Source: Antedon mediterranea
Taxonomy: Eukaryota > Echinodermata > Crinoidea > Comatulida > Antedonidae
Reading direction: 5' to 3'
NCBI RefSeq assembly: GCF_964355755.1
Contig: NC_092678.1
Span: 3,296,922-3,360,921 of the forward strand
DNA length: 64,000 nt
Positions 3,001-39,000 of the stretch are shown here, piece by piece. The notes under the pieces are model-generated. The model did not search any database, was not told where the DNA came from, and worked only from the letters and a program-made list of their open reading frames with translations. The translations under genes were made by a program, and so were the position numbers. The first letter of the stretch is position 1. The number at the start of each line of letters is the position of its first letter.

Positions 3001-6000
3001 GATGTGCTCAATTGCGAATCTGAACATGACCAAGTCCATAGGAGCCTTACTCATTAAATTATACTCATCTAGGCACTTCTCAATGGTCTAAAGGAGAACA
3101 ATAAGAATCAATCAAGGGCACTTTTATCTTGCATAAGCTGTGTATATTCAAATCTTGGTGAGGAATTCGGAAATTACTAATACACTAGAAAACAGTCTTT
3201 AGTTATATAATTTTTCTCTATCAAAGTTGTTTATTCAATATTTCTATTCAACTTTAAACCTATTTCAAATCTTGTACTTTAAAAATAATAGGTTTTTAAA
3301 TACCTCTTTTAGAGCTCCAAAGTCAGTTATTTCATCGTAGACTTTATCTTCATTATTTGTTTTGACATAATCTCCAAAGAACAAACTGTAAATAAGTACA
3401 TATTCTTGATAAAAATATCATGGATAACTTATCAAGTATTCACATACCAAAAGTGCGTTAAAGTAAGGTGAATCCAAACACCAAAATTCCTATGTTTGTG
3501 ATTATATTATACCCACTGCTTTACCTGGTGGTACTGTTGACAGTGCCGTAAAAATGAAAAAATTAAGTGGTGCGGTAGTTGCAAGAAAAGGGGACAATCT
3601 CTGTGCAGGCTACAGAGTTGTCGAAGGCCTCTGTCAAAAAGTGGTCAGGTTGAAATCTTACCAACCCTGGTGGCTATAACCCCGGTTGATGGTTATAATT
3701 TGTAACATTTTACAGTTGAAAAGAACTTTATAATATATAGCTTGTGAATGGCAATCTTTGATTACAGTCTAAAAATATTAGGTTCAAAGGGGAGTTGATT
3801 TGCTGCTGTAAGTACGGTCATTGCTGCTCAAATTAACCCCCAGCTCAAACAAGATTAAGTCGTTCAAAATACATAGTGTAGTGTTGTGTCTAAACCAGAA
3901 AAAATCAGATTTAAAATTGTTTAGACTATCTTGATGGATGCAAACCATTGAATAAGGTTAGGTAGGTTGTTAACAAATATTAATATTAGTGAATTATTAG
4001 CAAACATCTAAACCGTGAGTTAGGAAACAACCGGCAATATTGTATACCTTCGTAAATTCTCATCTCGGAATTCCGGGCCAGCACTATTACTTTAAATATC
4101 AAATTCAAACATAAATTAGAAATTACAAAGGACACATGCATGCATACAGTATAAATTCATTTATTTTTATTGATATTGTGAAGAAAATCAAAATATTGAG
4201 AACTGTAGATTTGTACCGTGTAATCATAATTATAGTATTTTTGTAGGTTAATTTGAAATCTTACCTTCGCATATTGTCATCGTTGACCTCCTTAGAGACA
4301 GTCAGATGCGAGAAGACGGCATTCATCTTCTCTTTAAACTGACTTTGGACAACATTCTGTGAATGACCCAATAGTAAAAGCAAATAATAAATGAGTATCT
4401 TTCACTGTGTTTATTACTGTAGGCATACTGCCAACAGGTTGTAAACGTAATGTTAGGGAGACACAGAAAAGAACAGACACTGAACGACATGAGCAATATG
4501 AGCAACTGAATGCAACTGGCATAAAATATATGTCGACATGTGCACAGTTGCTTTGAATTGTGTTGAGTTTCATTCAGTTGAACAGAACTTCAAATCATGT
4601 TGCATGTCCAGTATGGGTAACTGCGACTAGTTACAATCAGTTTCATATCATCACCCTCATCATGCCACTCCTTTGCAGTTATATTCAGCTGCTCGAAAGT
4701 GGACATGAGTGCACCTTGCACAACTAGTTCCTTTCAGTTAAGATCAAATTTGAAATAGTTCTGGTGCAAAATAATCCATATTGATATTAGCAACTGTCTA
4801 GTCCTCAGAGAGGAGGTGTCATAATAAACCACATTATCAATCATGTTTCAGTCTTACCTTAATAATCTTAAAAAATGTCTGCCTGTCATCCTCGTCTACC
4901 AGTCGATCATAGAAGACACGATACACCTCATGCACCCACAAGCGAATGAGCTTCTTAGCTCCTTCATTGCCTGATGGAACACAGTCTGGTTTGATAAGCA
5001 GAATGCCTTGGACAACCCTGGCAAAATCTCGCAAGTTAAACAAGTAGTGTGATTTGGTTGGAGTTGGCAGAAAGTTGGAGATGGATTCAATGTAAACCGC
5101 TGTTGTTGCGTATACCATTATCTAGAAATGAAAATAAAAATAACATCTAATGCTCTGTTTCACTATCAAACTAGTTTGACAAAAAAGGTGTTAAAAAGAT
5201 GTATCCAAATATGGTGGTGATATGCTCAAATATGGTACTGATATGACATCATCAAGTCCATAAAGTTTGATAATGTAGACAGAGCTTAATTTTATATTGT
5301 GATGTGCTTATAAAGTCCTATAATACAAATCAACTCACTCTAGAATATCGTTTCAAACTATTTTCAAATCCTTTGTCAAAATGCCAGTCCATAATAGGAG
5401 CAAAGATGTTCTTCATTGTCTCCTCATCAAATGAATCGATTGTGATGATATTGAAGTGTCGCAAGAAGCGTGATGTCACCGTGTTTCTTCCACCGCCAGG
5501 TGGTCCCATTGCCGACACCATCAAAATATCAATCAGCTGTAAAACGCTTGTGTCTTTACGATCAAACCAATACCCGTGATCAATCCACTGTCGCAATAAC
5601 TCAATTGGGGGCTGAGCGCCATATTTCTCCTTAGCGGGCATGTTCAAGTCATCAACAAAAACAATAAGCTTCTTTCCGATTGGTGGACCATAAGTGCCCT
5701 TCTTTCTTCGGTCCAATTTTGAAAATATAATATCCTGTGTTTGGTTGGCACTTGTCTGCGCAGAGAAGTTCACATTATTTGGAATGTAGTTCTGTGCTGC
5801 AAGATCTAGCAGAAAGTTGTTTGTGATTGCGGACTTGCCTGTGCCGGTTGGACCAACAAAAAGAAGTGGTTTTCCTTGTAACAGAAACTTGCGTAGGAAA
5901 TAGAGCTGTCTCTCGGTTTCTACGGTTTTAATAATAAGCTCATTGACCTATAAAGAAATGGCATAACCCAAGTTAAATTATGTAACTATAGATAGATCTA

Positions 6001-15000: not shown

Positions 15001-18000
15001 TTAATAGTTTTCAATTTAAACTTTTCTGACCTTGGAAAAAATAACCTCTTCTTCTCCAAGTACTCATTAAGCCCTCGTTGGATGTTGTCTAGCAGACTCT
15101 CAGAATGCTGCAATTTCTCCAGCATTTGTTCTTGGGATGTCACAACAAGCGCCTTTGTGTTTAGCACAGAGGTTGTCATGACTTCTTTCCTAGGAAAAGC
15201 AATAAAATAAACAACTTTATAAATATTGTAATAAATTACCATTCCCTAACATATAGAGTAACATAGTATTTACATGAACAATTCTAGAATAAGATGTTTT
15301 GATTTAAGAAACCATGTATAGTTAATAAGAACAATCAAGAACATTCCAGAAGTGCTATTAATAGAAACTGTAATCATGTAATAATGAGAAGTATAAAGAA
15401 TGATCTAGAAGGATAGGAGCATCTTGTATATAAAGGGATGTAAACTATTGTAAGGTTGTTGGATTAGAGGTTGGATAATATATTGTAAAGTTACTGTGAA
15501 GCTGTTGTTTAAAGTGCTTACTCGATTGTTAAAAGTTGAAGTTGATTGAAATTAAAGCTTTGTTTTTTAGTTATTTTACAACTTTGTGGATTTTGTGTGT
15601 ATACTTTTATGTCACAAGGGAGTTCCTAAAGTATTTTCAACCGCTCGGAAACATACGTGAGAGGAGTTCGTGACAATATATATTTACATTTCCATAATCA
15701 GATGACTAAAAAAATATAAAAAACAAAAACCAATGTGTTTTACCAGTTAGCATCAACTATGGTGAACATTTCTCCTTCAATTGGAATTTGTCTACGAATG
15801 TCCTCTGAGCCGAAAATCGGTTCTAAATAAAGCCACGCTGCTTGTACTTTCAACCAGGAATCAAGGATGTCTCGCATGCGATGCTGGAAAGAAATTAACA
15901 ATTCATACAGTAATTACAACATGTAGAGTGGGAGTGAGTCAGTGGGATACAGAGTTGGACAAACAGCTCTGGGATTTGGCAACAATGTTTCATATGGATT
16001 TTGTAATTCATTGAGGTACGAAGTGAGGTTAGCTTCTGAGTAATCCTGAGCATGTCATAGCTATGCAGGCTAATCCTTTCAATCTCTATTAATCATTAGC
16101 AAAATAAAGGTGGACAGATAAAAATTCAATTAGTACATGTTTCACACCCTGTTGCTTCTCAGACAAAAGTACAATAAGCAAGTGTACCTGGACATCCAGA
16201 AAAACTTGGATTACTCACCAAACCAACTTCCCACTCTTTGATCTCTGCCTCGAATGGTGCTATGAATGGCGATCCTCTCATTGTGGAAGTCTTGACCACA
16301 TGATCTTCAAGAAGCACCTGAATGTCATCTGGTGCTGAGAGGATGCTTATCTGTGTGTCTTTGTATGGAGTGAAGTTAAAGTTCATCTCTTCCCAGTCAC
16401 CTTTCATCTTAATTAGGGCCTACGCATGTTAAAAATAAAACAACTGTAAACATAAACAATGCAACCCAGAAAAGCTGTGTCAGTTTGAACTTTAACCTGA
16501 TGAGTGTATCTAGCGTGCTGGCACTACATAATTGGGAAGGAAAGATGAGATAGTAATTTAATGACAGAATTGTAAGTATTAGTCCTACCTTTTCCAAAGC
16601 ATACTCTTTGCTTGCCTGTGAGCTGATTTCACTGAGATCTTCTAAATTCTTTTCAAGACCCATCTGAAGGCGTTCAATCAGTGGTGTTTCTGGTGATGGT
16701 GTCATATCAAATCCAACCTAAAATAAAATTCACTTATGTTAGAAGATTCAATTTAGTATGGTAGGACTTTTACTTTTTCCATAATAGAGAAAGCTGCCAT
16801 TACAGTACCTTTTGACTCATCATATCCCAATGGCGTTGTTTTATTCCTGGGTTACAAAGAGCGTTTATCAGTGGCATGTTAATCTTGAACTTTTCTAGCT
16901 TCCCTTTGATGGTTGCTGCAGCACGCATCGGACCCATAAACTCTGGATGTGCAAAGATCTTTGTCAACTTGTAACTTGTCTTCCACATGGTCTGTACTTC
17001 TTCTTCAACATCTTCAGCATTGACTTCCAAAAGAGGACCATTCATCCATTTGTCGTACATGAGGTGGAATTTTACGGCGGCACTCCAGAGTTTGTCATAC
17101 GGTTCTTTAGCTTCTTTCATTTCGTCTAACTGAGGGTACTGACTTACTTCACCGACGTCCAACATCTGTTCCTCTTTGTTGATTTGTAATTTCTAAGAAG
17201 GTTGAGAAGTAAAATAAGTAAGAATAAAAATTACTTATGCATATGGTAATTAGTAATCGTATATGGGCTTTAAACTGGAAGTCCAGTGTATTCATCTCTT
17301 TAGAGATCCCAGTGCATCTTTCGAAATCTTATCTCAGCCCTTGTCAGAACACAAAAAGACCCTTAGTGGAGATGAAAGTTGTTGTACGTGATGTCTACAC
17401 CATTGAGCAATTTAGCTCATTTAGCCAGCAACTACTAACCTCTTGGTAAAACTCCTCAAGTTTTTGACCAATCACATTCAAGGCATCTTGATAACTATTA
17501 GCCTCAGACATGCGGTCTTTAGACTTAAATGATTTCACTTCATCAATGATCTCTTTTTTTATTCGAGCTGTGAATTTCTTCTTCCAATCGTTGAGTTTTG
17601 ACACAGCATAGTCATGCTCCTTCTGCAGCTTGGTCTCACTAACAGTGGAAAAATTATTACAAAAAAAGTTGTTTCTCTTGAGTTTAGATTAGCAGTTGAC
17701 CCTTTAGGGTACCATTGCCTTGGGTGCACTGTATACTACTTTTATTCAATATCTTCAGGCTTCGTATGATATTGTCCCTCATGCGGTTATTCACCCACCA
17801 GGCTATCAACCACCAGGCCATGACCCACCAGACTATCACCCACCAGGCTATCACCCACCAGGCTATCACCCACCAGACTATCACCCACCAGACTATCACC
17901 CACCAGGCTATCACCCACCAGGCTATTACTCACCAGACTATCACCCACCAGGCTATCACCCACCAGGCTATCACTCACCAGACTATCACCCACCAGGCTA

Positions 18001-21000
18001 TCACCCACCAGGCTATCACCCACCAGGCTATCACCCACCAGGCTATCACCCACCAGGCTATCACCCACCAGACTATCACCCACCAGACTATCACCCACCA
18101 GGCTATCACCCACCAGGCTATTACTCACCAGACTATCACCCACCAGGCTATCACCCACCAGGCTATCACTCACCAGACTATCACCCACCAGGCTATCACC
18201 CACCAGGCTATCACCCACCAGGCTATCACCCACCAGGCTATCACCCACCAGGCTATCACTCACCAGACTATCACCCACCAGGCTATCACCCACCAGGCTA
18301 TCACCCCTCCAGGCTATCACCCACCAGGCTATCACCCACCATGCTATCACCCCTCCATGCTATCACCCACCAGGCCATTTCACCAACTTACCTGTTTCTT
18401 ATAAGTGGAATAATCCTATTCGGCCAAGTAAACGTATTATCATTCAGCATTATATCATCTTTAGGAAGGTAAGCATAGTCCATCAAAAAAAGAACGTTCG
18501 AGGCTGCGATTTCAAGTTTTTCTCGCAACTGCAATAACTGTCCTGTACGGAGTCTGTCTACATACTCTTGTAGCCCTACGAGTTGATCTGTGCTTTCGGA
18601 CTGTGCGGTAATCTTTCGTACAATGCCGTCATATTCTTGGCAAATGCTACGGTTGAACTTGCGACTAGTACTTGTGATTTTGTTGATCATGATGGAAGCT
18701 AGGTTTCGTGCTCTTGCAATAAGCCACTGGAAAAATAAAAAACATATTGATATAATCAGTTAGTGGTTATTTACAAAATGTATCCTACACAGTACATGGT
18801 AACACAATACAGTGGAACACAGCTTTTGGGACACCAAGGGGATACTTGCGCAAAATGAACATAAGGAAGTATATGTTTCATTTCAACCCCTATTCAACCC
18901 ACCTAAAAAGGGACACTTTATGAAGCCCAAAGGCATCTCTGTAATAGGTTATACTGTAATTATAGATACAAATCTTTGCAGTATTTTGGTTGTTGTTGTT
19001 GAAACCATACAAGAAAGAAAACTTACACTATTTATATTGTTACAATCTAATAGAAATAGATGCATTGGAACAAAGACGGGTAGTAGGGCAGCTTCATCTG
19101 CCATTGTTTTTAATTTCTCAATTTCACGAACGTAATCACGCAGATGTTGCTCTTTGTTGACAAACTTTTCAACTTTTACGTCAGATTGTTTGGACAACAA
19201 ATATTCAAATGGTTGATAAACACTTGTGTACCTAGAGAGAATTTAAAGGAAATTTAAGTTTTAAAAATGATTAATTCATTTACTACAAAGGTAAATTCAA
19301 AATACAATTATTAATAACCATGCATACCTATTGGGACCATGGCCATTAGCATATATCACAACTTCTATTCGTTGCTTGGCAACATCAACAATCTCTTCAT
19401 CTCTTTTTACAGTACTGATGAATGGAATTTTCAATTTATCAACAGATTCAAACAGCAACGACTCGATCCTTGGAAACTCTTCCATGCTTTGAACAATCGT
19501 GTCAACTGCTTGATGAGTGATGCCAATGACCTCTTCAAATGGCGGTACAAACCGGCAAGCCACGTTTTCCGTAAAGGCTTCCATGAAGACAGTGAAGGGA
19601 TGTTCCATAACTGGGAAACTTAGACCACTTTCCTTGTATTCAACTTCATAGCTGTTCCCCTTGAAATACAGCTCTAACCATGTGACAAGGTCATAGATTG
19701 ACCTCTTTATAGCACTACGCATGCACTTTGACATTAATGTTGCTATAGAACCGAAGAAACAATCCATTTCATTCATTCTAAATACCTTTGAAAAAAAAAT
19801 TTATTGTTTTTAATTAGAAATTTTACTTAACGATGAATAGGAGGAAGACAAATAAGATAATAATATAATATAATTTGTATAGAGCATTTCCAAATTGATC
19901 AAGGCACTTCACATTCTAATGCTTTATTTTAAAGATATCACATATTAAACATATTTTTAAACTCATAATAATTACAAGGAAGATCTTGCAAGATACTGTA
20001 GGATAGGTAGTTAAGTATTCATTTTACAATTTTTAGGCTTCCCAAATTTAATAATCATAGATCTAAACTTATTATCTAATAATTAATTTAAGAATAATAA
20101 TTACTATTGACAGACATTTAATGTATAGATCAATAGATATTAGTAAACTCGTTGATTAAACATGTTTTGGAAAAACAATTTTCATTAGTGCAGAGATACG
20201 GAACTAACACTGTATTACCGAATGAATCTATAACATTAAATATAAATTTCACCCAACAATCAAGCGTTAAATGAACTTAAATGACCTCATCCTCTGTCAT
20301 TAGTTCTTCAATATTTGCTCTCTGATCACCGACAATATTAGCGCACTCAACCAACCACTCGTTTTCAAGTCGTTGTCGCCCTCGTCGGCATGATTCAACA
20401 ACATACTCAAAGAACTTCTCTAGCGTGATGGGTTGTATGGATTTTAAGCCTGGGATGTCTATGAGTCGAAAGTCGATGTACCTGGAAAAAAAAATTTAAT
20501 TTACAGAACATACTGTTTGTTGGCAAAGTTTGTACTCAACTACTTGTCACCTTGTACTTACAAAAATCCTAATCCAGAGAATTATAAGCTTCTTTTCCCA
20601 ACTGTAAACATAACATTGACGAATGACAGAACATCATGTCAACGTCAGTTGCGTGACCAAGGCTACTGTAAATAGCCGAAACGTAGCAAGTAAGTACTTG
20701 ACAACTGGTTTAACAAAAAAGTTAACATTTATTTTCTAAATAATATTTCACATTTTATATTTAGTATAATTATAATAAATAGCACTAGAATTATTTCCCT
20801 CACAGCAGAACATAAGGCATTTGTAAAGCCAAACTCAATCCCTTTGTTGTTTTTGTTTTGGCAAATAAACAAACAATTATTTTGAAATAGTACAGAAACA
20901 CCCAACATTGTAGCCCAAGCACAGCACCTATTCTTATGCTTTTGTTTCAGGGCATAACATCTTTTAGAGGATAAGGGATCTTTGATATGTTCTCTGGTAT

Positions 21001-24000
21001 TTTGCTTAGAATAGAAATTAATCTTATTATTTATAATGCACAACCTATATCATTAAAGCTCTAGTATCTTAAAGCTCTGCCTACATTATCAAACCAAACT
21101 ATAGTTTGACAAAAAATGATGTGCATAAATATGGTAATGATATGCCCAAATATAACATCATCATGTCCATATATGGCACACAACATTTTTGTTTTAAATA
21201 AAGTTTGATAGAGTAGACAGAGTTTAAAGGCTGATTAGTTGAAATTAATGCCTACCACATTCGAGAAAAAAATAATATGTAATCGTTTCGAATATAATCA
21301 TCATTATCATTGAAACTAGTCAACGCAATAACATCAATGCATCAAGCACAACATAGATGCACCTTGATGACATTAATGGTTATTAGATGAGAGTAGGAAA
21401 TGAGGGGGTTAAACAGGCAGCAAAAAAAATAATTGAAAGGTTTTTTTTTTCTAATTTCTAGACCTTCTAATATAAATGATGATTTAATCAATATTCAGCT
21501 TATTGGGAGTGTTAATCACTTGATACTGGCCTATATTTCATTACTATGTTGCATACATTTGGACAACATTTGAGAGCTAGAGCTAATGTTTTAATCTTGA
21601 AGCAATGGTGTCCGGATTGATTGTTTGATCATAATTAAAAACAGTATTATTTTAGCACTTTTTCTGGATGTTTTTTCTTTCCAGTTAAAATTCACCTTTA
21701 ATTAGTTATTAATGAATGGCTGGACTAAACATAATGCTTCAATAATACAATTAATGAAGTGACTAGGCGATTAGTATAATTAATCTTTAGTATTTATACA
21801 TTTCTAGTCTTTTTAACAAGCTTGTTATTAATTTTAAAAGTTTGTCTTCAAATACCCATATTTTGGCCTGCTTGTGTATTTATTCATACTAGCGTAATTT
21901 TGTTTTTTCACGCTGCTGCTCTAGCCCGCTACGTCCCATTAGGACTACTCAATCAGAAGCTAAAGCAAGCAGCAGTTATAGTTCTAAGGACAGACAGTTT
22001 TGTGAAAATGGAAACTCCACTATGATTTATTGATTCCAGCTGCTACAGTAGACCCAAAAAACGGCTGGGAAAGAGTCTATTAGGACATGTCATGCTAAAA
22101 TTACAAATCCCTATATTCACTGTCAGATATTCATTGAATTATTATCGAAACAGTCCATTAAAGTTTGTGTTTGTAATAGGATACTTCACAATTGAAATAT
22201 CTAGGGTGATGAAGTGACCCCCAGATTTGACCTTAGCAATAAAATTAACTAAAGTGACAGAAATTGAGTATTCACTTCTGTCACAAAAAAGTAATATTTA
22301 TTCACATATAAAAAATGAAAAGAAACCCAAAAACCATTGTCTGACAGACAATTTAAGTATTTGTTGCTTTAAATTACATTTTTTCAGGTAAAATAACTAT
22401 CTATTATGTGACAATAAAATGACACATTCAAAAACATTTGAAATAAAAAATATTTTTCAATAAGCGAGCAGCGTTTTTTGTAAGAAATATTTCTTGTTTA
22501 GTTGTAAATAGTAATTGTTATATGTGTGCAGAAAAACCCCAAAAAAAGTAGAATAAAAGATCATACTTTGTTTCCCATAGGAATAGAATTTCCGACATAA
22601 TCGGATGTGTAATGTACAGATGTTTCTCCATAAAATTGCGGGCGATGATTACAGCTGTTTTCCACGGAAAAGCGTCTCTTCCTGCTGGGTTTGTGGTCTT
22701 CTGTGGCAATGGAATACCAAGCCGTTGTTGTTCCAAAGGGTCTCTTAGAATGTAGTCCAGCATGCTTTGTTTTACGCTTGATGTATAGTCTGTACGCATC
22801 TCCTATAAGAATAAAAAAATGTTTAGAAACACAGATACTTTGAAAAGGTACATAATGCAAGTGAACTTAAGCTCTGTATAGACTATCAAACTTCAGACAA
22901 ATGTGATGTGCCTATATATGGACATAATAATGTCATATCACTATCTGGGCACATCACACTTTTTTTGGCAAACTATTTGATATTGTAGACACGAGCTTAA
23001 ATGCTAAAGTAAAAAATCAAAAACAATTTCAGAAGTTGTTCAGTAATGTAAGTGGTTAATTTTTTCTAAAATAAATATTAGGAGCAATTAATATCAAGTA
23101 GGTAAGTTGATTTTCTAGAAGGCAGGAAGCAAATGTCACTGTTATCTCAAATAACAACTCCCAACTATTTGGTAAACAAAGTTAAATGTAAAACAATGGA
23201 CCTAAAAATATGAATGACAAAAGCCTATTGCATCCCAAACAATGGGTGAAGCAGGGAGTTGTTAATAACAACTCCCTGGGTGAAGCTTGCATTTTAAGGG
23301 TGGACACCTCACTTAAGCATCACAGTCTAGAGTTTAGCATCATTCTAGCTTCTGCAGTCATCGGTATAACATCTACTTCTACGCCTTGCATTATATCTTA
23401 TCTTAGCTCTTGATTGAAGATTCTAGCTGCTACGGTTTCAGCATACTGTACAGTACAAGGTAAGTTAATTAAGTGAACACTCCACAGATATAAAGATTAC
23501 TAGAGTATTAATAATGATCACTTCCTTGGTTGTTGTTTAGAATGCTGTACATTGGTGATCTTGGTACTTGCCTCCAATCCCAAGGTCCGGGGTTAAATTG
23601 GATTGCCGTTCAATTTATGTGTAACTTTTGTAACTCACAACTGTTAAATTACTTCACTCCAGGGGATGCAAGAATAAGACTTTTTATGAAGGTTTTATAA
23701 GCAGTATTATTCATTCTGTAATTCTTCTTTAACTGGCTGTTAGATGTGAATAATACAAAAGAATAGAGTGGAAATCAAAACATTTTGGAAGCTGATATTA
23801 CAGCTTGAAATTAATTCTGTTTCAGATGGGGAAAAGAAAGCAAACAAAAAAACCAACGAAAGAGAAAGGCTCCAAGATACTAAAGCTAGATATGGAGCAG
23901 ACAACTGCCAGTATCAAGGAAGGAAGCAATTTGAATAGTGTAGTCAACTCAATGTCCACCAATCCGACAAATGAAGTGGTTAATCCGGTGTCTGTCAATC

Positions 24001-27000
24001 CACCAAGTAAAGTAGTCAACCAAGAGTCCACCAATTCAACAAGCAAGGTAGTCAACCAAGAGTCCACCAATTCAACAAATAAAGTGGTCAACCCGGTTTT
24101 TGTCAATCCAACAAATGTATCAAGTGGCGCTGCTACTAGCATTACAGCAACACCTCGTTCTGGAAAAATGGTAAATTTCTGATTTTTATTTAATTGTTAT
24201 GTTGCTATATTATTATTTCATGGAGCAATTTTACTGAAATTCATAGATTTTACAACATGATTTTAGTTTTCATCATAAAAAATGAACAAATTTTAATGCT
24301 GATTCTCAAGATTATAACCTACTTTATATACTGCCGCAGAAGCACATTGATTAATCATTTACAATTTGAAACTATAAAAAGCTATCATGGTAAAAACGTA
24401 AAGCTCTGTCTACACTATCAAACTTTATGTGACAAAAAAAATGTGATATGCCCATAAATATGGACATGATGATGTCATATCACTACCATATTTTAGCACA
24501 CCCCAAACTAGTTTGATAGTGTAGACAGAGCTTAAGACACAGGGTGAATTTGTTATAGTCTGATAATAGTGTGCATACATTCATTATTTATTTTCTGTCT
24601 TTAGTCTACTACAACAAGCAATGTACAAACAACAGCGAGGGAGACCAGTACATCAAGTCAGAATGCTACTGCTCGTACAAGAGAGCTTCCATTATGCATA
24701 GCACCTGGTAAAAGAGGTTTCATAACTGTTGGTAGTATCTGTACATTTTCAAAAGTAACAGTGTTGGTTTATGACATGAAATACTCGGAAGGGGGCGGGA
24801 TTGCCGATTGCATGGTCTGCGAAAGGATTCCAGGCTCACATACGTTGGAAAGTAAAAGTTCTTGTATCTTACGCTGTCCTGCAAATGAATTGACAGCAGT
24901 TCGTAATACTTCAAAAAGTTTATCATTGGCATATTATTGTGCCAAATATGCATCAACATCAATGGACAAAGTCCTTAATGAATGTGTGCACAATATTAAT
25001 TCTAAGTACTTAAGTTACAGCTATAAATTTGAACTCGGATATTTCTTTTGTGATTCATTTAATAGTCTTTTTGATAGTCAATGTGAAAGAAGTAGCTTTA
25101 TAATTCCATATAATGATAGAGTATTGAAATTATTTGGATTGGAGCCAATCTATTTTCAAAAGACGTTCTATATTAAAAGTGACTACCATATACTAGACCC
25201 TATTTTTGGGCCATTCTGGGATGTAAAAGAGAAAAGGACTGGGGGTTTCTCCTATATTCAATCACTAACATTTCATATGCAAGAGTTTGTAATTACTTGC
25301 TATGTTAATATAGTAACTTCAACCAACAAATTTAGTAAAAACTACCGTACTGTTGTCGCACCTCTACCATAACAATCTGGTGCTTGTGTCAAATTTTCGG
25401 CCCTCTAATCCATAAGGTGAACAGAAAATAAATAGTTTTTATGAAAAGTCGATAACAAAATGTAAATAATTTTACAAACTGATACACAGGTTATTAATAA
25501 TATCTTCTATGTTTCACTGCCTATGAATAAAATCAAAGTTGTTTAATTCGTGTTTTATTTTGCTGCATCTAAATAAAATTGATATTGTTTTGATTAAAGT
25601 GTTCATTTTGTGTTTTTTTAGCATTTAAAGTTGCATACAGTCTGCTCTCCCATTCTTAGATTCTCAACGGAAACTAAACAAGAAATATTTCTTACAAAAA
25701 ACACTGCTCGACATTTCAAAATTATTCATTGTTCTTTCTTCAGATATATTTATGATTAATTATTGAAAAGATGTCCTTTAAATGCCAAAAATACATACAA
25801 ATCAAAGATAGTTCTTTAGTTATGAATCACATGCCCATTTAAAAATGGTCAATTTTGAACTTTAATGTGCTGTGTGTGTGACCTCAATGTATGCAACTGA
25901 ATACCCTCTAGAGACAACGTGACTTCAAGCAATGAGCGATATATATTCTTTGTTTGAAGTGAGAAAATTCTATCCAGTCTGTTGATTCGCGTCAACCAAT
26001 AAAAGGGCAAGAATCCAAAATCGTTCAACCGTGAGCCCTCATAGCAGCTGGGATCTATAAATTATAGTTGAGTTTACAAATTAGCAAAAATGTCAGCCTC
26101 TAGTACTACTGTATAACTGCAGAATCTCTTGTGGGGGCTAGAGCAGCAACTTGGAAAAAAAAACCAGAGTTTCCTAAAGCTGTCTACACTAAAACAATGT
26201 GCCCATATAAGGTAGTGATATTCCCAAATATGGTAGTGATATGACATCATCATGTCCATATATGGGCACATCACATTTTTTTGTTACATAAAGTTTGATA
26301 GTGTAGACAGAGCTTAAGATGTTCCAGTCCTCCAAAGATACCATTGGGTTTTTGGGAGGGTTTGAAAATGATTTTTTTTTAAATAGTTTTCATGTCAACT
26401 TACATAAAAATGATACACCTTTCAGTTGGAAAAAAATATCGGGAGGCTTTATCAAAGCATGTGCAAACTATAGAGGGCACTATAAAGAGAAAATAATAAA
26501 CCACCAACCAGTGCCTATAAAAGTACCTACGTAAAAGAGCTAATAAAGTGCTTTCTCGGCTAATACAAAAAGCTGGTGGAGACAAATAAAACAGTTTCTC
26601 GGACTAACTCAGGTTTTACTAATGAGTGGTACTTTTATGATACAATATTATTTTAACAACGAGGTACAAATGAAATTTTGTTGGTTGGTTTACATTTTGA
26701 TTTACATACAATTATACAATGAATAAAAAAAAAATGTGTAAATACTATTAAATATGTGAATTGAATTATAAAAAAATGATTGTCGGCAGCTTTTAGTGTT
26801 TTGATTCAGAGTGATCAGTCTACCAGTTTGGCTAGGCTTAAAGAATTTATTTAGAGGGTGATCAGGTCCTGGCAAATTTTATTTTACAGTTTTTACACTT
26901 TCATGAAGTGAAATAACAGGCTAATGCCGATGATTTTACTGTCCCACTTTACAATTTCAGCTAGTTTGCTTTTTTCCCCTTGAGTAAGATTCAAGAACCA

Positions 27001-30000
27001 GACAATAGAGCAGAATACAAGAACACTTCTAATAACGCTATAAAAAAAAGTTAAGAAATTGACATGTGATATGAAGGTTTTAAGTTTTCGATGGGAAAAA
27101 AAACATTCTCTAACTTGCTCTTTTGGTTATAGTGTTGGCTTCCCAGAGGTCTATTGTCTCTATCAGTTATACTAATTGGAAGTGTTCTTTTAGAGCATCT
27201 AAAGTAAAAAATGATCTCTTTAGTTTTATCTGATTTTTATTTGTTTTTTAAATTGTTACTATACCAAAAGATTTTGGCCGAGACGGTTTAGGGTCAACTT
27301 GACCTGCACCCCTCTATGCATTAATTGACTAAGTGAATAAGTTTTTTACTAAAGGAATTGCATAAAACAAACAATAAAATATCTAAATAAAATTAAACAT
27401 AATGTTAGCATATAATTGATAACATTCTTTTTCATAAAACCCTACCATGTGCTGTAGAAATTAAGACGACCAACAATTGATAAGTTGTCAGTAATATCTT
27501 CAGTTTAAAAAAAAGTTGTTAATTTTTTTTGGAAATGCAATTTTTTCCCCCGTGATTTTAAGGAAAATAAGTAACTCTTCTTCAGAATGTAAATAATATT
27601 ATAAATTTTAAGTTGATTTTCTAGAAAGCAGGAAGGAAATGTCACTGTTATTTCAAATAAAAACTCCCAATATAAACTATTGGTAAACAAAGTTAAATGA
27701 ACTATATAAAACAATGGACCTAAAAATATGAATGACAAAAGCTATTGCATCTCAAACAATGGGTGAAGCTTGCATTTTAAGGGTGGAAACCTCACTTAGG
27801 CATCACAGTCTAGAGTTTAGCATCATTCTAGCTTCTGCAGTCATCGCTATAACATCTACTTGTACGCTTTGCATTATATCTCTATCTTACGTCACGATTG
27901 AAGATTTTAGCCGTTACTCTTTCAGCATTTACTCTACAGTAATTGGTAAAAGGTAAGTCTTAATTAAGCAGCTTAAATTTGAAAAATCACACTCAGTGTG
28001 TCTAGAGGTAGAGTAGCTTATCTTGGATTAGGCCAAGTTGAGCCACCGACAAGTTGAGCCGCCGCCAGAAAAACGTTATTTTCTATGAAAACGGCAAATG
28101 CTAACTTTCGCTGGTGCTCGTTTCTTTTTAATAGAAGTTCTATTTATATTAGGGATAACGATGTACATTCAAAAGTTTAAATATCACGGTTTTTAGTATA
28201 TATATTATTAATTAAAAAAATAATTATGAAAATCTGGCTTGTAGATTCCTTGTGGATTAGGCCAAGTTGAGCCGCCGACAAGTTGAGCCGCCGCCAGAAA
28301 AACGTTATTTTCTATGAAACGCCAAATGCTTACTTTCGCCGGTGCTCGTTTCTATTTAATAGAAGTTCTATTTATATTAATTATTAGATATAATAACGAT
28401 GTATATTCCAAAGTTTATATATCACGGTTTTTAGTATATATTATTAAATATTATAATTAAAGAGAAATAATTATGAATATCTGACTTGTTTGTAGATTCC
28501 AAAATATAAGGCCTAAAACATGACTGAAAGTGATCGTTTTTAGCCAAAAATGACGTAAACATGTTGCCCCCTTAGGCGGCAGTTGTATGAACTAGGCCTA
28601 CTCCATTTTTCGGTAAAATAATTGCATAAAATCACCGTTTTTTAGTAAAATATTCTGTGTATTAACATTGTAAAATTCAATCAAATATGATATTAAAAGA
28701 TAGTAGATAAAAAATAATAATTATTTAACCTCATTCGAAGAGTATCAATACTCTATTAGTCCTGAGAGACAACGTGATTTTACGCGAGAAAAAATATTAT
28801 GGAGTGCAATTAAAAACAATTAAATTATTAAATATGACTACTTTCCTTTGCTGTGTTGTTATGGCGGTTCAAACCAACAAAATTGTAGTATGTAATTATT
28901 ATTTATTTTCATGACACAATAAACCTAAAGACCATGAACTTATGTACTAGGAAACCCCTCTATCACTACGCAAAATGTCGTAAAAGACGCACTGGGCGTT
29001 TCATAGAAATTACCGGCGGCTCAACTTGTCGGCGGCCCAACCGGTCATATCCCCAAAATATAAGGCCTAAAACATCACTGAAAGTGATCGTTTTTAGCCA
29101 AAAATAACATAAACATGTTGCCCCCCCCCCCCCCCCCCACCCAATCGGCAGTTGTATGAACTAGGCCTACTCCATTTTTCGGTAAAATAAATATTACTAC
29201 TTTCCTTTGCTCTGTTATGGCGGTTCAAACCAACAAAAATTTAATATGTAATTAAATATTATTTATTTGCATGACACAATAAACCAAGACCATGAACTTA
29301 TGTACTAGGACACCATCCTAATCACTACGCGAAATGTCGTAAAAGACGCATGCACTTGGCGTTTCATAGAAATCACCGACGGCTCAACTTGTCGGCGGCC
29401 CAACCGGTCATATGCCCTTATCTTATAGAGGTGCTTAATTATGGAACTACTAAGTAACGATCTCAAAACAATTAAATAAATGTTCACATTTTGCCTATCA
29501 ATTAGTATATTAAATACAATGTTGATTAAGTTGCGTAAATAATAATCTGTTCGCTTAAAAGTAGTTTTAGTTATTTTGTTTTTATATTTGTAATCTAGTG
29601 AAATGTAATTTTTGTACTTATTTTTCTATTCTACTTGTATTCCATTAAAATTAAATAAATTATTTACAGTCTTGTTGTCACCGCAATCAAATAAAGTATT
29701 ATTATTAAGACCAAGTTGAAGTATTTCCTTTTTTAAACTAGCTTTTCTTTAATTTAAATAATTGCCATCATCTATTTTAATTTATGTAACAGCGAATCAA
29801 GATATATAAGATTATAATATGCGCTATATAAGAATGAAATATTATTATTCTTATAGTATTGTATTTTTTATTTATTTTACATTTATTCGGTAATAAAAAA
29901 TCACAACAATCCCAGCGGGCAAACCGGTGATTTACAAATACAAAACAAAGAAGAACACAATAAAAAAAGCAAGCAAACAATCTTAATTACATATGAAAAA

Positions 30001-33000
30001 AAAAAACGAAAAAAAGAGATTATAAAAAAACAAAAAAAGGAGATGATAAAAAAACGGAAAAAGGAGATTATAAAAATATACTAAATTATTATTATTTACC
30101 AATTGAAACTATTTATTTTTCAGATGGCGAAAAGAAAGCAAACAAAAAAAACAACAAAGAGCGCCAAAATACCCAAACTAGATAAGGAACAGATTCCATG
30201 TTCTGACAATGAAACCAAAGAAAAGCAGGCAGCTATTAAAGACAATCAAAATAGTGTAGTCAATCCAGTGTCCGTCAATCCGAAGCCAGTCAATCCAACA
30301 AAGAGTGTAGTCAATCCAGTGTCCGTCAATCCGAAGCCAGTCAATCCAACAAAGAGTGCAGTCAATCCAGTGTCCGTCAATCCGAAGCCAGTCAATCCAA
30401 CAAAGAGTGCAGTCAATCCAGTGTCCGTCAATCCGAAGCCAGTCAATCCAACAAAGAGTGTAGTCAATCCAGTGTCCGTCAATCCAAAGCCAGTCAATCC
30501 AACAAAGAGTGTAGTCAATCCAGTGTCCGTCAATCCGAAGCCAGTCAATCCAACAAAGAGTGTAGTCAATCAACAAAATGGGGTGGTGAAAGTCATCTCG
30601 AAGTCTACTAATCCAACAAACAGAGTCGTCAATCCGGTGTCCTTCAATTCATCAAATAGAGTAATCAATTCGAAGTCTACCAATCCAACAAACAGAGTCG
30701 TCAATCCAGTGCTTGCTAATTCATCAAATGGAGTAGTCAACGCCAAGTCTATCAATCCAACGAACAAAGTCGTCAATCCAGTGCTTGCTAATTCATCAAA
30801 TGGAGTAATCAACGCCAAGTCTACTAATTCAACAAACGGAATGGTCAATTCAGTGTCTGCCAATTCATCAAATGGAGTAATCAACTCGAAGTCTACCAAT
30901 CCAACAAACAGAGTGGTCAATCCACCAGTGTCTGCCAATTCAACGAACAGAGTCATCAACCCAGTGCTTGCTAATTCTACAAACAGAGTGGTCGACCCAG
31001 TGGTGGTAAGTTCAACAGGCACTGTCAATGAAGGAGAAACTATTGTGTTTAGACCGAGTATAACAAGCAGTCCTGTTAATGCAACACCACAATCTGGAAG
31101 CACAGTAAGTTTCTGCCATTTCTACTTCCTTTATTTCTCGTCATTCCATTTTTTTATCTTCAGTTTCTGTGTTTGAATTCCCTGTATAATTGTTCTTTTA
31201 TCTCGATGTTCTCTTTTCATAGCTTTGGATGTTGTACTAGTAATTTTAAATAATCTTTATTTTTTCCATTTTGTCTTGTTAATGTTACAAAAAATGTTTT
31301 TTTTTCTCGTGTCAGTTTTTAAAAATCTAACTAAAATTAGTTCTTCAGTTTTAACAACAACCAATTTATCATTTACAACAATGTGAATAATTACAAATTT
31401 GATACTAAATATTTATCAATTTGTTTTAAAATAAATGAAAGTTGATTCGACAGCAAATAAATTGTCATACTGCAGGTAGAGTTATAGTTTCAAACTTTAT
31501 CATACTATAACAACCATCATGGTCAAACATAAACCCAGATTTGAGAGTATTTGATAGTATGTATGCATGCATTATTTATTTATCTTCTGTTTTTTAGACG
31601 ACACCAAGTAACGTTCAAACGACAGTGAACGAGCAAGTAAACTCTGCTGTTCCTCATACAAAACAGCTTCCGCTGCTCATAGCACCTGGTAGAAGAGGTT
31701 TCGTAAGTGTTGGTGATGTCTGTATTTTTTCCAACCTAACTGTGATGGTTTACGACATGATATACTCCAAAGCAGAAGGCATCATTGCCGGTTGTATTAT
31801 CTGTGTACCAGCAAATACAGGTTTGTTAGACAGAAAGAATTTTTGTACATTAAGCTGCCCTGTAAATGAATTAGACGTACTCCAGAATCCTCCAAGAAGT
31901 CAGCCACTCAGAACATTTGGTAAGGAATGTGCATCAAGATCACTGGAGATGGTGCTTATTGAATCTCTTGAAGCTGATTCTACCTATTTACACAATACCA
32001 ACAAATTTAGGCTCGGACATTTCTTTTGCGATTCCTTAGATAAGATTCTAGGACATAGAAGTTTACTTAACAGCTTCTATTTTCTGTACGATGATAAAGT
32101 ATTGCAATTGTTTGGACTGACAAAGGGAAATAATTTTTCTAAGACATTCTTTATGAAAAGCGACTTCCATCTTCTCGATCCTATCCTAGGATCACTCTGG
32201 GACGTGAAGCAGAATGGTGAGCTCACCTACTATGTCCAATCACTAAGATTATCCGTAGACGGTTCCATGATTGTTTGCTATGTGGATTTAACAACTACAA
32301 GGAAAAGATTATGCCACGACTACCGTTCTGTTTTTAGCTATAACACACTTTTGTTATAAGTATGTGCACAAATATTTTGTCGCAGTTTTGGTCGTAGAAT
32401 GTTCATGAGGTACATGCTTCTGCATATAGTTAATGTAAATAATTATTATAAACACTGATACACATGTTGCTAAATCATCTATGTTTTACTGGCTCTGAAT
32501 AAAGTTGATTCATGTTTTACTGCATATAAATAAAATTGCTATTGTTTTTTTAAAGTATTAGTTTGTGTTTTTTTAGCATTCAACGTTACTGTACAGTCTA
32601 ATCCTAGCCAGGTTTTCTACAAGTGGAAACTCCAAAAATGTTTTAAAACATTCCAGTCCTCCAAAAACTGGATACCATTGTAATAGTTTGGGTTTTTGGG
32701 ATATCTGGAACTTTTGAAAACTCTGATTTAGAGTTTTCTGTCATCTGTGATTTTTTATTGATGATAATAAATGTTTAAATATTGAATCAAAAACCAATAT
32801 TCATACCTCAGTTACTCTTTCCAAACATTTTTTAAGGAACTTTGTTTTAAGATGTTGCGGGATGAATCGATACGCCCCTTGGATACTTCCTTCGGACAAT
32901 GCTGCCACCGACTTGGTGTCAATTGAATCATGCAAAAGACTGTAGTATCTGAAATACAAGAAAAGACAACTATTTACCTGCAAATTGAAATCACGAATTT

Positions 33001-36000
33001 GAATAACGATACAGTGTCGTATCTGAAATGAAAAATGTACTATAACAAAAGTGCAACGCAAGTGATTGACCAATGACAAGCAACAAGTTAAATAATTCAT
33101 TTATTGTGATTGCTCAAACTACTTGCATTGCGCTTGTGTCCTAGTGGGAAGCAAGGTTTGATTTGAAGAAAATACATACAAAGCGATAACATAAATTACG
33201 GACATTACAAATAATACATTTATAAAAGGTTTTCCAGGATAGCCCAAAAAGCTTATCAGCTTATTTCCATTGGGATCCTTTACAATCTAAAATAAAAAAT
33301 ATAAACATTACAAAGTATTGCATTAAACACGTAAATATAACAAAAACAATAATATAAAAAACAAGTTAAATTAAAGACTATGATTGACTTATATAGTTAT
33401 TTGGTAGAACAGAAATGTGATTTAACATATTTCTTTAAATTAAATTTGTTTTCTATTTGCTGAATGGAATGAGGTAGGTTATTCCATGCCTTTATGCCTG
33501 TATAATAAAACGTTTTAGATATTTGACTATCAGATTTAGGAACTGAAAATCCATTGACACTACTTCTAGTCATATAATGGTGGTTAGATGAAACTCTTTC
33601 AGTTAAATAAGGTACTGATTTTCCATAAAAAATCTTATGAACATGATTAAGTTTGAGTTGGCAAATTCTATCCTCTAGACATAATTGACCGATTTGGTTC
33701 AGTTCGTCTTTACCAATATGTGCACGATTATTTTTATTTAATATAAACCTAGCAACTTTACAGACCACACAATTAAAATGCGGTTTAAGAAATCCAGAAT
33801 GATTAATTCAACCACTAAAAAATTATCAAGAATATGTCAGAAGGAGCCCACAAACATCGAGATGGATCAGTACACCGAGGTAACCGGTAACTACTCTTCT
33901 GTAAGATGTACTGGGCACACAAGCCAAACGTGTATACAATGAACCTCCAGTTTTAAGTTCTTGACTTGTATTACCATCAGAACTATGATGTAACATAGCC
34001 TTGAATCTGTGCTGATTTGATTTGAAGGCCAGGTGCGGGCAAAAAATTTCTATTGATCATACATTCCAATAATTATCGATCTATAGTTTCCCCTATGTTT
34101 CATAATTTTTTGGATTTTATTTGTGTTACACGAGCTTGTTGAAAATAAGCACTTTCTTATCAGTGGGTGGATAGTTCAAATTACACAGTAAAATCTCTAT
34201 TCTTTTGTACACAAATTTTGTAAATAGAGAGGCATTTTAAAAAGCTATGAAAAATAAACGGTGTGGTAAAAAATGTTATCAGATGACTAAATGCCATCCT
34301 GAGATGAGTAGTAGTAATTTTGTTTATTTTATTTATTTCATTTATATGTAATTTACTTTCTATGGACAAGAGTTTCCGAAATAAAAGATTGAATGAATGA
34401 ATAATATAACTTGAATTTTACATTTCTGGTATTTTTATTCAACTTCAGATTTTTATTTTCATGCTATAGCAAAAATTATCCACCGTATATCCACTAACTT
34501 TTTTCACCTTCTAGGGAGTCACCAGACATGTTATTACATTAGGTTAAACTACCTAACTACTAAAAAAAAAGTCTTCCTGGTTTTTATGGCAGAATTATGC
34601 CAAATTTTGTATTTGACCATATTAAGGGAAATTCATGTTTTTTCATCTTGATTTCTGTTACAAATATTTGATTTATGTACAATTAACCAGATATTATATT
34701 TAAAAGTATCTATGAAAGTATCTTTGCATACCTCTCTTTATCAGGTTCATCTGGTGTAGCAGGCCTTGAGAGACCTAGGGTAGAGAATGTGTAGGAAGGG
34801 AAGACGACACTAAGAACTGCTTTAGTAGGCTCATCAAATTCTCTGCTAGATTGTTCTATATCAATGGTGCCATTCAGTTTTGTGGGCTGAGAACCTGAAA
34901 AAAATTATAATTAAATATGTTAGATACCATAGGTCGTGCGTTTGATGTACTTGGTTTCTCGGAAACCTGGATAAATAAGAACACGCCAATTGACTTATTA
35001 AATATCAATGGATACAATATGTACACTTGTAATAGAGAAGGTAGAGTCGGTGGTGGAGTTTGTCTATATTTAAAAGAACAAATCAACACCGTAACACGTG
35101 ATGATTTTGTATTTAACGATAACTCCATTGATTCACTTTTTCTAGAAATAATAAACACAAACGGCAAAAATACTATTGTAGGTATGTTGTATCGACCACC
35201 AAATTCAAACGTCAACTCGTTTAAATCTGATCTAGAAGAAATCTTACATAAACTTAATCGCAAAAACAAAAACTGCTATATCTTAGGAGATTTTAATCAA
35301 GACTTATTAAAATATGACATTCAAAAAACAACACAGGAATTCACAAACATTATTTACTCAACATCTTTTAGTCCATTAATCAACTTACCCACCAGAATAA
35401 CATCGTCTTCTGCTACAATTTTAGATAATATTATTACAAATGATGATAACATTTCGCATTGTAGAGTAATAGTCACTGACATTACCGATCATCTACCCAT
35501 TTTCATGACAACACACTTGTCATTAAATACTAACACACAAGCTCCAATTACAAAACAAAAAATAATTAATGATACAACATTAAATAACTTGCTTATTGCT
35601 ATTTCTAATGAGGATTGGGGTGAACTATATTTATGCACAGATACCAATACATCATATAACCTATTTATTAAAAAACTATCCAATCTCATAGATAATAACA
35701 TACCTACAAAAAGTAATAAGCCAAATGGTAATACAAAGAAAAAACCATGGATCACAACAGGAATTTTGATTTCAATAAAAAAGAAAAATAAACTTTATAA
35801 AAAATACCTTAAAAACCCAACACAATTATTAAAAAATATATATAAAAAGTACAAAAATAAATTAACTCATTTAATTAGAATTCGGAAAAAAACAATATTA
35901 TTCCAAAAAACTGGATGCAGCTCGACACGATTCAAAGCAAACATGGAAAGTTTTAAATGAAGTTCTAAATAGAAAAAAATCGAGTGTTAAGCCAAATGAG

Positions 36001-39000
36001 GTAATTAACCATAGTAATAAAACTTTGGTATGTGATCCAAAAGGTATGTCTGACGCTTTTAATGACTTCTTCTCCAACATTGGAAATGAATTAGCAAACA
36101 AAATACCAAATGTAAACAATTCTGACTTTAAACAATATATGAGAGAGAGTCAATCCCAATCCATATTTTTCAATCCTACGAATGAAGAAGAGGTCATTGA
36201 AATAGTTAGTCAAATCAAAAATTCAAATTCAGAAGGTGTTGATAACTTAAGTAATCGCATTCTAAAACATATTATTGCTGCTGTGGCATCTCCTCTTGTA
36301 CATATCTTTAACCTCTCTCTTGAGACAGGCATGGTCCCTGATAGTATGAAAGTAGCTAGAGTAGTTCCAATTTTTAAATCTGGCAATAAAAGTGACGTCA
36401 GTAATTATAGGCCGATCTCTATTCTGCCTACCGCTTCAAAAATTCTTGAAAAAATTGTTCAAATTAGAGTAAATAATTATATCACAAAGTTTAACATCCT
36501 TAATAATGCACAATATGGTTTCAGAAAAAACAGTTCTACTTTTATGGCCGTTATAGATCTGGTTGAACGAATAACCGATGCGCTTGATAAGAAAAAAAAT
36601 ACCATCGGAATATTTATTGATTTGTCAAAAGCGTTTGACACCATCAACCATGATATACTTCTTAAAAAATTGGAACACTATGGCATAAGAGGCACGGCCC
36701 TTAAATGGTTTAGAAACTATATTAATGGAAGGAAACAATTTACGTCTATTGATAACACAAGTTCGTGTTTGATGGATATAAATTGCGGTGTACCACAGGG
36801 TTCAATTCTGGGGCCTCTACTTTTTATTTTGTACATTAACGATGTATTTAATTGCTCAAACTCGTTATCTTTTGTTTTATTTGCTGACGACACAAACATA
36901 TCTGCATCTCACGAAAACTTGGATACGCTCATAGAACTAGTTAATGGTGAACTAAAAAATGTTTCGGATTGGTTCATGTGCAATAAACTATCAATCAACG
37001 TTAAAAAAACTAATTACATAATTTTCCGCAATCAGCGAAATCCAAGTAATTTAGAGAATGTAAATATTTATGTCAACAATAAAAGAATAGATAGAGTTAA
37101 ATCGACTAAATTCCTTGGAGTACATATTGATGAATTTCTCACATATAAGAACCACATCAATGTTACAGCTAGGAAAATATCTCGATATGTAGGCATACTA
37201 TATAAAGTAAGACATTTTTTACCAACCTATGCTCTCTGGACAATATACAAATCACTCATTGAACCAGTATTAAATTATTGCAACATAATATGGTGTAGCA
37301 CATTTCCAAGTTATTTAGATGAGTTATTTAAACTCCAGAAAAGGGCATTACGAGCTATAACATGGTCAAAGTTTAATGATTCAATGACTGAATGTTTCTA
37401 TAAATTTAAACTTCTTAAAATTGCGGATATCAATAAGTACCAAATTGGGCTTTTCATGTATAATGTTACTACTAATCAGGACGTGCGTTTTTCATCGCTC
37501 TTTATTAAAAATGGTTCTTACCATAATTATAATACAAGATCTAAAGACAAAATGATACTCAGAAAACGTAATCGTACTTCTACTAGTTTTACTGTGTCAT
37601 GTGTGGGACCCAAATTGTGGAATGACTTGAATTACGAACTACAAAGTACCAAATCAATATATATATTTAAATCATTGTTTAAAGAACATTTATTATCATT
37701 TTACAAATAATTTTAAAAATAATACTTGTTGCAGGATTTAGCTTTTTTTATTATTTATGTTTTAGGTTTTTAGGCTAGTTTTTAGGGACATAGGGGGACA
37801 CAACTAATCAAGCTCTTTTGAGTTTTTATGTGTTTCCTTTTCATCTTTTTTATGTTCTCATATATTGTTGTTGTATATTTTCATGATTGAGGATGAATAA
37901 AGAATATTTGAATTTGAATTTGAAATATCAAGGACAATTACATTTGAGTTTATTGTGATAAATATTTCTGACACAAAAAAAATGAAAAAATTATTGAACT
38001 ATATATTGTTGAATAATGATTCATATAGGCAGACAACGTACATTTCCATTCTCAGACTTTATGACCCCATTTATGATTATGATTGGGTCCTGGACCGCTC
38101 CAGGATCGTGTCCAAATTTAATTGTTTGGTGTTTACCCTTGGATTCCAAATGATGGCCTTTACTTCAATTTCTTAAGCCCTTGGTCACGGTTCACTGCAT
38201 AGGTTGGCCCAAACATAAAAGTTACTCCTGGATCCACCTGGGCAGGCCCAAATCGTAAGTGTAAAAGGGGTCTATGATAAAGAAGGCTGAGTTGGTTTGT
38301 ACGTACCATTACTTTCAGGGGAACTTGATGAAATGGAAGACCCATTCTGTGATTGTCTTCGAACATTGCATGCCGACCCGGTCCGACTAGAACGTAGGCG
38401 AGGACTTGACAATGGTCTTGGATTCAAACCTGCTTCAAGGCGGTCGCTGAGATCTTGGCGTGGACTCAACGGTCCAAATCGGGGTGAAATGTCATCTTGA
38501 CGTGGACTTGGTGGTGTGCTATTTATTGGCGGTAGAGTGTATACTGCAGATTGAGTTGCTGTTAAAGGTCTTTGAGTTGTTAGGCTAGCGGCAGGCTCAG
38601 AATGTCTTCGATTGTGGTTAATATCTCGAGGGCTGAAAAAACAAAATAGAAAAATATTGGTTGTTTTTATTTATATACAGTAAACCGCCATCAAGCATCA
38701 AGGACACAGGCTTTTTTACATTCTATAGCAATCAGGTTTCCCCCCGTGCACATCAGCCTTCATTAGAAAAGTTCACATTCATTTTGATTCGCTTTAACTG
38801 TATTTTGTCTTTATGTCTTTTATGTGTAAACTGACTTTGGGGTTGGGTCAACCGGCTCAGCTACAGTTCACTTAGGTTGACCCTGGTCTTCCCCAATTTG
38901 AAATAGACTGCGTAAATAATGAAATAAAATGAAATTCATCCTAATACCGGACAACTTTTGGCTCAGGGCCAAATATGTCTGGTTTTCCGGAAAGTCTGGT

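Follow-up and report, generated by a model that had tools for sequence, protein, structure and literature searches.

The closest described parallels to the genes considered here are those of the VTD type, which, in the part of PMC9741609 available to us, are said to come from transposons. A second parallel is provided by the accessory open reading frames of giant eukaryotic transposons, which, according to the accessible portion of PMC6431247, are large elements with extra genes that bear regulatory domains, as are the elements reported below. Among the papers listed on transposons with BRCT, kinase, USP or chromodomain parts, and in the available parts of PMC9741609, PMC6431247 and PMC9587614, no description of elements like those below was recognizable. 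Among the matches listed for the literature on nested genes and DNAH3, in the portions accessible, DNAH3 is unmentioned.

Here we analyze a stretch of 64,000 nucleotides (the window) from the genome of the crinoid Antedon mediterranea, in which an intron of DNAH3 houses two genes, A and B. We report that exon 3 of both genes ends in some 110-120 residues matching the C-terminal domain of a companion protein, whose gene neighbors that of a putative transposase in four large DNA elements (C1, C3, C5 and C7) of 10.9-12.8 kb in the same genome. On balance, we think it rather probable that this transposon companion domain was captured by the host, where it underlies A and B, and that it was duplicated in tandem and retained.

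Two intact genes antisense to DNAH3

The host intron, 10,004 nt long, belongs to DNAH3 on the minus strand, and both genes lie within it on the plus strand, antisense to their host. The identity of the host comes from a window exon at 5333-5947 (minus strand) that matches DNAH3 at 3e-94, with DNAH7 second at 5e-72, and the exon edges flanking the intron, 22802 and 32807, agree with splice signals; the first-pass annotation, made from the sequence alone, was right to place both genes opposite DNAH3. Its coordinates, frames and splice signals (a cag/ATG start, phase 0) also held when re-read in the sequence. The whole genes, A at 23826-25372 and B at 30124-32359, are intact and look spliced, with predicted proteins of 370 aa (A) and 580 aa (B). 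Their parts are as follows.

22803-32806, minus strand: DNAH3 intron hosting A and B, from splice signals, with DNAH3 identified by an exon elsewhere in the window
23826-24170, plus strand: exon 2 of A, with ATG, lysine-rich N-terminus and 36-nt (12-aa) repeats
24605-25372, plus strand: exon 3 of A, with a Cys-containing domain of about 225 aa and the stop
30124-31104, plus strand: exon 2 of B, with ATG, lysine-rich N-terminus, and 51-nt (17-aa) and 36/72-nt repeats
31598-32359, plus strand: exon 3 of B, with the Cys-containing domain and the stop

In both genes exon 2 begins at cag/ATG and ends with a GT donor in phase 0, and exon 3 follows an AG acceptor. Exon 2 opens with a basic stretch (MGKRKQTKK in A, MAKRKQTKK in B), so that the basic N-terminus previously ascribed to the pair is indeed lysine-rich in both, and continues as a linker of repeats, with 36-nt units in both genes and a 51-nt unit in 6.3 copies in B. 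The ordered cysteines claimed for the two proteins (C-x2-C, C-x3-C, FFCDS, CYV) are common to both by alignment. Exon 3 of A or B has no match below E 0.1 in Pfam, PHROG or NCBIfam, and PDB has no match up to E 10 to A or to a 4-row profile; a Pfam scan of exons 2 and 3 of both genes gave two chance-level matches (0.76 and 1.9) and no reader module. AlphaFold models, made from an alignment of A and B only, were poor (pLDDT 43.4 and 51.1), and for that reason no fold search was made. A viral origin, prompted by the basic N-terminus, was rejected: a viral-contig scan with the 4-row alignment gave 24 pattern matches, none of them confirmed, and PHROGs gave one match at 0.3.

Elsewhere the window holds a minisatellite at 17791-18375 (15-nt unit, 38.9 copies) and another at 50622-53737 (48-nt unit, 64.9 copies, 97% matches) that lies inside a stop-free frame of 1082 aa on the minus strand. 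Two overlapping plus-strand frames of 349 and 611 aa at 34911-37710 read by eye as a LINE endonuclease and reverse transcriptase.

Constraint on the proteins and a conserved 5' block

The exon-3 proteins of A and B are 45% identical, with dN 0.41, dS 0.79 and dN/dS 0.52 between the paralogues, and a pN/pS of 0.65 (bootstrap 0.52-0.80). In neutral simulations the two frames never stayed open together (0 of 5000 pairs); one or both remained open in 15 of 5000 pairs when the observed distance was used, and in 0 of 5000 at the synonymous distance. We conclude that selection kept A and B, which look like real, long-preserved protein genes. The earlier suggestion that an intron-hosted pair duplicated locally and then diverged is supported, with constraint on both copies.

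Upstream of each gene lies a block of similar sequence.

23104-23459, plus strand: conserved 5' block of A, with 93% identity to the corresponding block of B and a GTAAGT donor at its end
27610-27952, plus strand: conserved 5' block of B, 93% identical to that of A

The identity of 93% extends over 320 aligned sites, with 61 gap columns, and rises to 97% over the 161 sites of the upstream portion. Elsewhere A and B are 72% identical in exon 3, 78% in exon 2 and 83% in the 3' region, and about 70% in intron 2 in a forced alignment, so that the 5' block is more conserved than either exon 3 or intron 2; the ranges used for exon 2 and for exon 1 of B overrun the donor by 2 nt, with a trivial effect on the percentages. 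The block is probably a promoter together with a noncoding exon 1, and its similarity may be held by gene conversion or by regulatory constraint. A genome search with the block of A gave seven places, namely A, B (80%) and five short ones around A's inserted palindrome only, and the full-length block was listed at A and B only.

This palindrome, 27 nt long (CAGGGAGTTGTTAATAACAACTCCCTG, within 23249-23292), sits inside the 5' block of A and is missing from B. A 9-nt repeat (GGGTGAAGC) flanks it on both sides, overlapping its outer bases, and short matches to it occur at five other genome places; it looks like a minimal mobile insertion. Intron 1 of B (28024-29417) contains a poly-C run as well as inverted repeats whose arms measure 28 nt.

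Distant relatives and the elements that carry them

Among the best candidates scored, a genome search with exon 3 of A found A and B alone, and one with exon 3 of B found A, B and a weak third place, L005, at E 0.0048; close copies thus number two. L005 is an uninterrupted open frame of 447 aa, whose C-domain resembles exon 3 of A and B and whose start is weakly chromo-barrel/Agenet-like (Pfam 0.0057 and 0.0086, both under cut-off). Further relatives were chained from B to L005, from L005 to L007 and a decayed copy (L008), from L007 to L013, and from L013 to L020 and the fragments L021 and L023, giving seven other places that carry the domain, with two additional weak places at E 1.98 and 3.9. 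Many dispersed copies, which the first-pass annotation had named as the mark of a transposon reading frame, therefore exist as distant relatives (the seven other places) and not as close copies (two). Six of the seven lie in a transposon context; near L021 no transposon neighbor was found, and L023 has transposase fragments inside and beside it. L008, a second, deleted copy, has an end like the right end of C1 (97.6-97.7% identity over 981 and 133 nt), and L008 and L021, both decayed element copies, carry stops.

The four elements end in terminal inverted repeats (TIRs) of 40 nt in C1 (11.4 kb), 28 nt in C3 (10.9 kb) and 36 nt in C7 (12.8 kb); C5 (12.1 kb) is less sure, with a weaker 19-nt pair chosen among several short candidates for its likeness to the C3 repeat. 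Target-site duplications were not identified by eye. A multi-exon gene encoding a transposase-like core precedes L007 and L005 in the same orientation. L013 and L020 stand upstream of one long frame each (1811 and 1759 aa), which encodes that core too. These frames, at 167-5602 of L024 and 4554-9833 of L020 respectively, both combine the core with BRCT, and since they are open, these elements look little decayed. Three aspartates, D116, D160 and D196 in C1 numbering, occur in all 5 of the 5 aligned core sequences, and the second part of the core has TE.GE.SHY in 4/4, a pattern compatible with a DDE-type enzyme; Pfam gave no transposase match in the elements. Core matches in the genome number 14, some being pieces of one copy.

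Other parts vary among the elements. BRCT is found by Pfam in C5 (1.3e-9) and C3 (4.7e-6, exactly at the cut-off) and is unsupported in C1 (0.21) and C7 (none). In C3 a UCH-like start scores weakly (0.0016); such a start was seen in L024 tested alone and weakly in the whole scan of L020. A protein kinase gene is present in C7 (2e-11) and C1 (1.7e-18), and a piece of one remains in L029, a third copy that has decayed.

L025, 6868-8445: transposon kinase gene
L027, 1079-2471: transposon kinase gene
L029, 6574-6954: fragment of a transposon kinase gene

In C1 the kinase gene comes after that of the companion, in the same orientation; in C7 it lies on the other side and strand. In the examined stretches of C3 and C5 no kinase was found, the one match being a chance-level 16 residues at 0.56, so that no single element is shown with every part. 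The N-terminal parts of the companions L005 and L007 score weakly with PF22732, PF05641 and PF21743 (0.0057 to 0.15, under the Pfam cut-offs). KilA-type and HMG-type domains, suspected by eye in the elements, were dropped, Pfam giving no KilA and half an HMG box at 0.06.

Homology to the companion C-domain

A profile built from the transposon rows L005, L007, L013, L020 and L023, with A and B left out, recovers both genes.

31961-32329, plus strand: stretch of B homologous to the companion C-domain, frame residues 122-244, E 2.2e-8 with the transposon-only profile
25028-25351, plus strand: stretch of A homologous to the companion C-domain, frame residues 142-249, E 1.3e-4 with the transposon-only profile

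Among 558 window frames of at least 40 aa, B ranked first (2.2e-8, 28.9 bits, 123 residues) and A second (1.3e-4, 16.6 bits, 108 residues), the next frame standing at 0.1, and 4000 shuffled versions of A and B scored no higher than 6.2 bits with the 5-row profile. When each element was left out in turn, B always came first (5e-8 to 6e-7) and A second, if weakly (0.00015 to 0.01); without L005, A scored 0.01 with an unrelated frame next at 0.019. L005 and L007 alone gave 2.1e-6 for B and 0.015 for A, and L013 and L020 alone, which had been reached stepwise from B through L005, L007 and L013 and not directly, gave 1.9e-5 for B, 0.0029 for A and 0.003 for an unrelated frame. In the reverse direction L005, L020, L013 and L007 were top among 1406 frames, some from overlapping loci; BLASTP linked L005 to B at 2e-7 and to A at 0.001, and hhalign, with 117 columns aligned, supported the C-terminal homology at E 1.6e-6. 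Most rows have the core LFGL, LD..LG..WD and a final YR. The domain had been described as unassignable and the family as purely of the host, a view that finds no support in that form, the C-terminal half of the domain being common to A, B and the companion protein of large DNA transposons.

The shared region is the C-terminal one. A CPxNEL block looks alike by eye, and homology over the full length of the domain was considered and rejected, as two profiles of the cysteine-bearing N-terminal half list neither A nor B. The motif C-x2-C-x(13-14)-C-x3-C, whose cysteines are candidate zinc ligands, is kept in A and B and not in L005 or L007.

That the similarity is convergent or spurious, A and B being an orphan family, would suit the identity of A to L005 and L007, which is only 16-18%, its weakness in several profile variants, the lack of any Pfam, PHROG or NCBIfam match below 0.1 for exon 3, and the lack of a PDB match for A. 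We nevertheless judge it very improbable, since a profile of either element group alone finds B as the best window frame and shuffled sequences attain at most 6.2 bits with the 5-row profile.

How the domain came to be shared is a separate matter. In a tree of the seven domains A and B group with L013 and L020 on a long branch, with support of 94/92, short of the value that the tool treats as firm, whereas BLAST places B nearest L005. Given the long branch and this conflict, the capture may have run the other way, from host to transposon: A and B would come from an old animal gene family, and the transposons would have taken the C-domain as a companion module. A spliced, host-like layout, an own 5' block and purifying selection all fit such an origin, as does a tree without strongly supported nesting of A and B inside the elements. 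However, all four other intact carriers found adjoin a transposase-like gene, and B is about as far from the two element groups as these are from one another, a pattern easier to explain by a long presence of the domain in the elements; we regard this host-first order as fairly unlikely.

Search of the window for element parts

Transposase and kinase queries from the elements had no match in the window, the best covering 14 and 22 residues at E of at least 0.35. With up to 3 mismatches allowed, no TIR word of C1 or C3 occurs in the window, and those of C7 and C5 have one 3-mismatch place each (40870 and 2299), unpaired, outside the DNAH3 intron and taken as chance. With these queries and words, neither gene has an adjoining transposase match or lies between paired TIR words of C1, C3, C5 or C7. 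A and B also lack the chromo-like part of the companion, having instead the short basic N-terminus and the long repeat linker.

These results bear on whether A and B are simply the undecayed companion gene of a transposon insertion, with no host function. Their companion homology would be expected of such a relic, and the DNAH3 intron does hold other repeats of mobile-element type. Yet both frames are open at a dS of 0.79 (0/5000 in simulation), no transposase match or paired TIR was seen nearby with the queries of the four elements, and the decayed element copies L008 and L021 do have stops; a relic is, in our estimation, quite improbable.

Discussion

Capture by the host is the simplest account, because six of the seven other places have a transposon context and around A and B the element queries gave neither a transposase or kinase match nor paired TIR words. 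We infer that the transfer went from element to host. The companion domain of a large DNA transposon would have ended up in the DNAH3 intron, equipped with a 5' block and a noncoding exon of its own, and the intronic unit would then have been duplicated in tandem, giving A and B. In C1 and C7 the companion plausibly helps the transposase on chromatin, as it has a weakly chromo-barrel/Agenet/Tudor-like part ahead of the C-domain and its gene comes just after the transposase-like gene.

For A and B our guess is a role as nuclear adaptors, in which the C-domain would bind the companion's partner, be it the transposase, DNA or a chromatin partner. Nuclear location and binding are proposed on account of the basic N-terminus, which points to the nucleus, the long linker and the C-domain as a binding module. 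The two proteins might perhaps be competitors that restrain their parent elements. In a stronger form, which we hold to be distinctly unlikely, they would be host-made antagonists that use the captured domain to bind and restrain the elements, with the shared 5' block giving joint, possibly germline, expression.

Two orphan intronic genes thus become a testable case of a host using the accessory domain of a transposon and not its transposase. They also point to DNA elements of 11-13 kb that pair a transposase-like protein with a chromatin-reader-like companion, with a kinase in two of the four (C1 and C7), and raise the question whether such elements steer themselves through chromatin or kinase signals.

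Compared with known chromatin readers of the chromo-barrel, Agenet or Tudor-like kind, the companions L005 and L007 are weakly alike, and A and B have no such match. The words kinase, BRCT and chromodomain are absent from the main text of PMC6431247, as far as it was available, which sets the elements reported here apart from the giant transposons described there. Unlike the VTD-type genes, as presented in the accessible part of PMC9741609, A and B are known from sequence alone, and their source would be the companion domain of a TIR element and not a Helitron deubiquitinase. What they would have in common with those domesticated transposon genes is the outcome, a host gene that keeps one domain of a transposon protein after mobility is lost.
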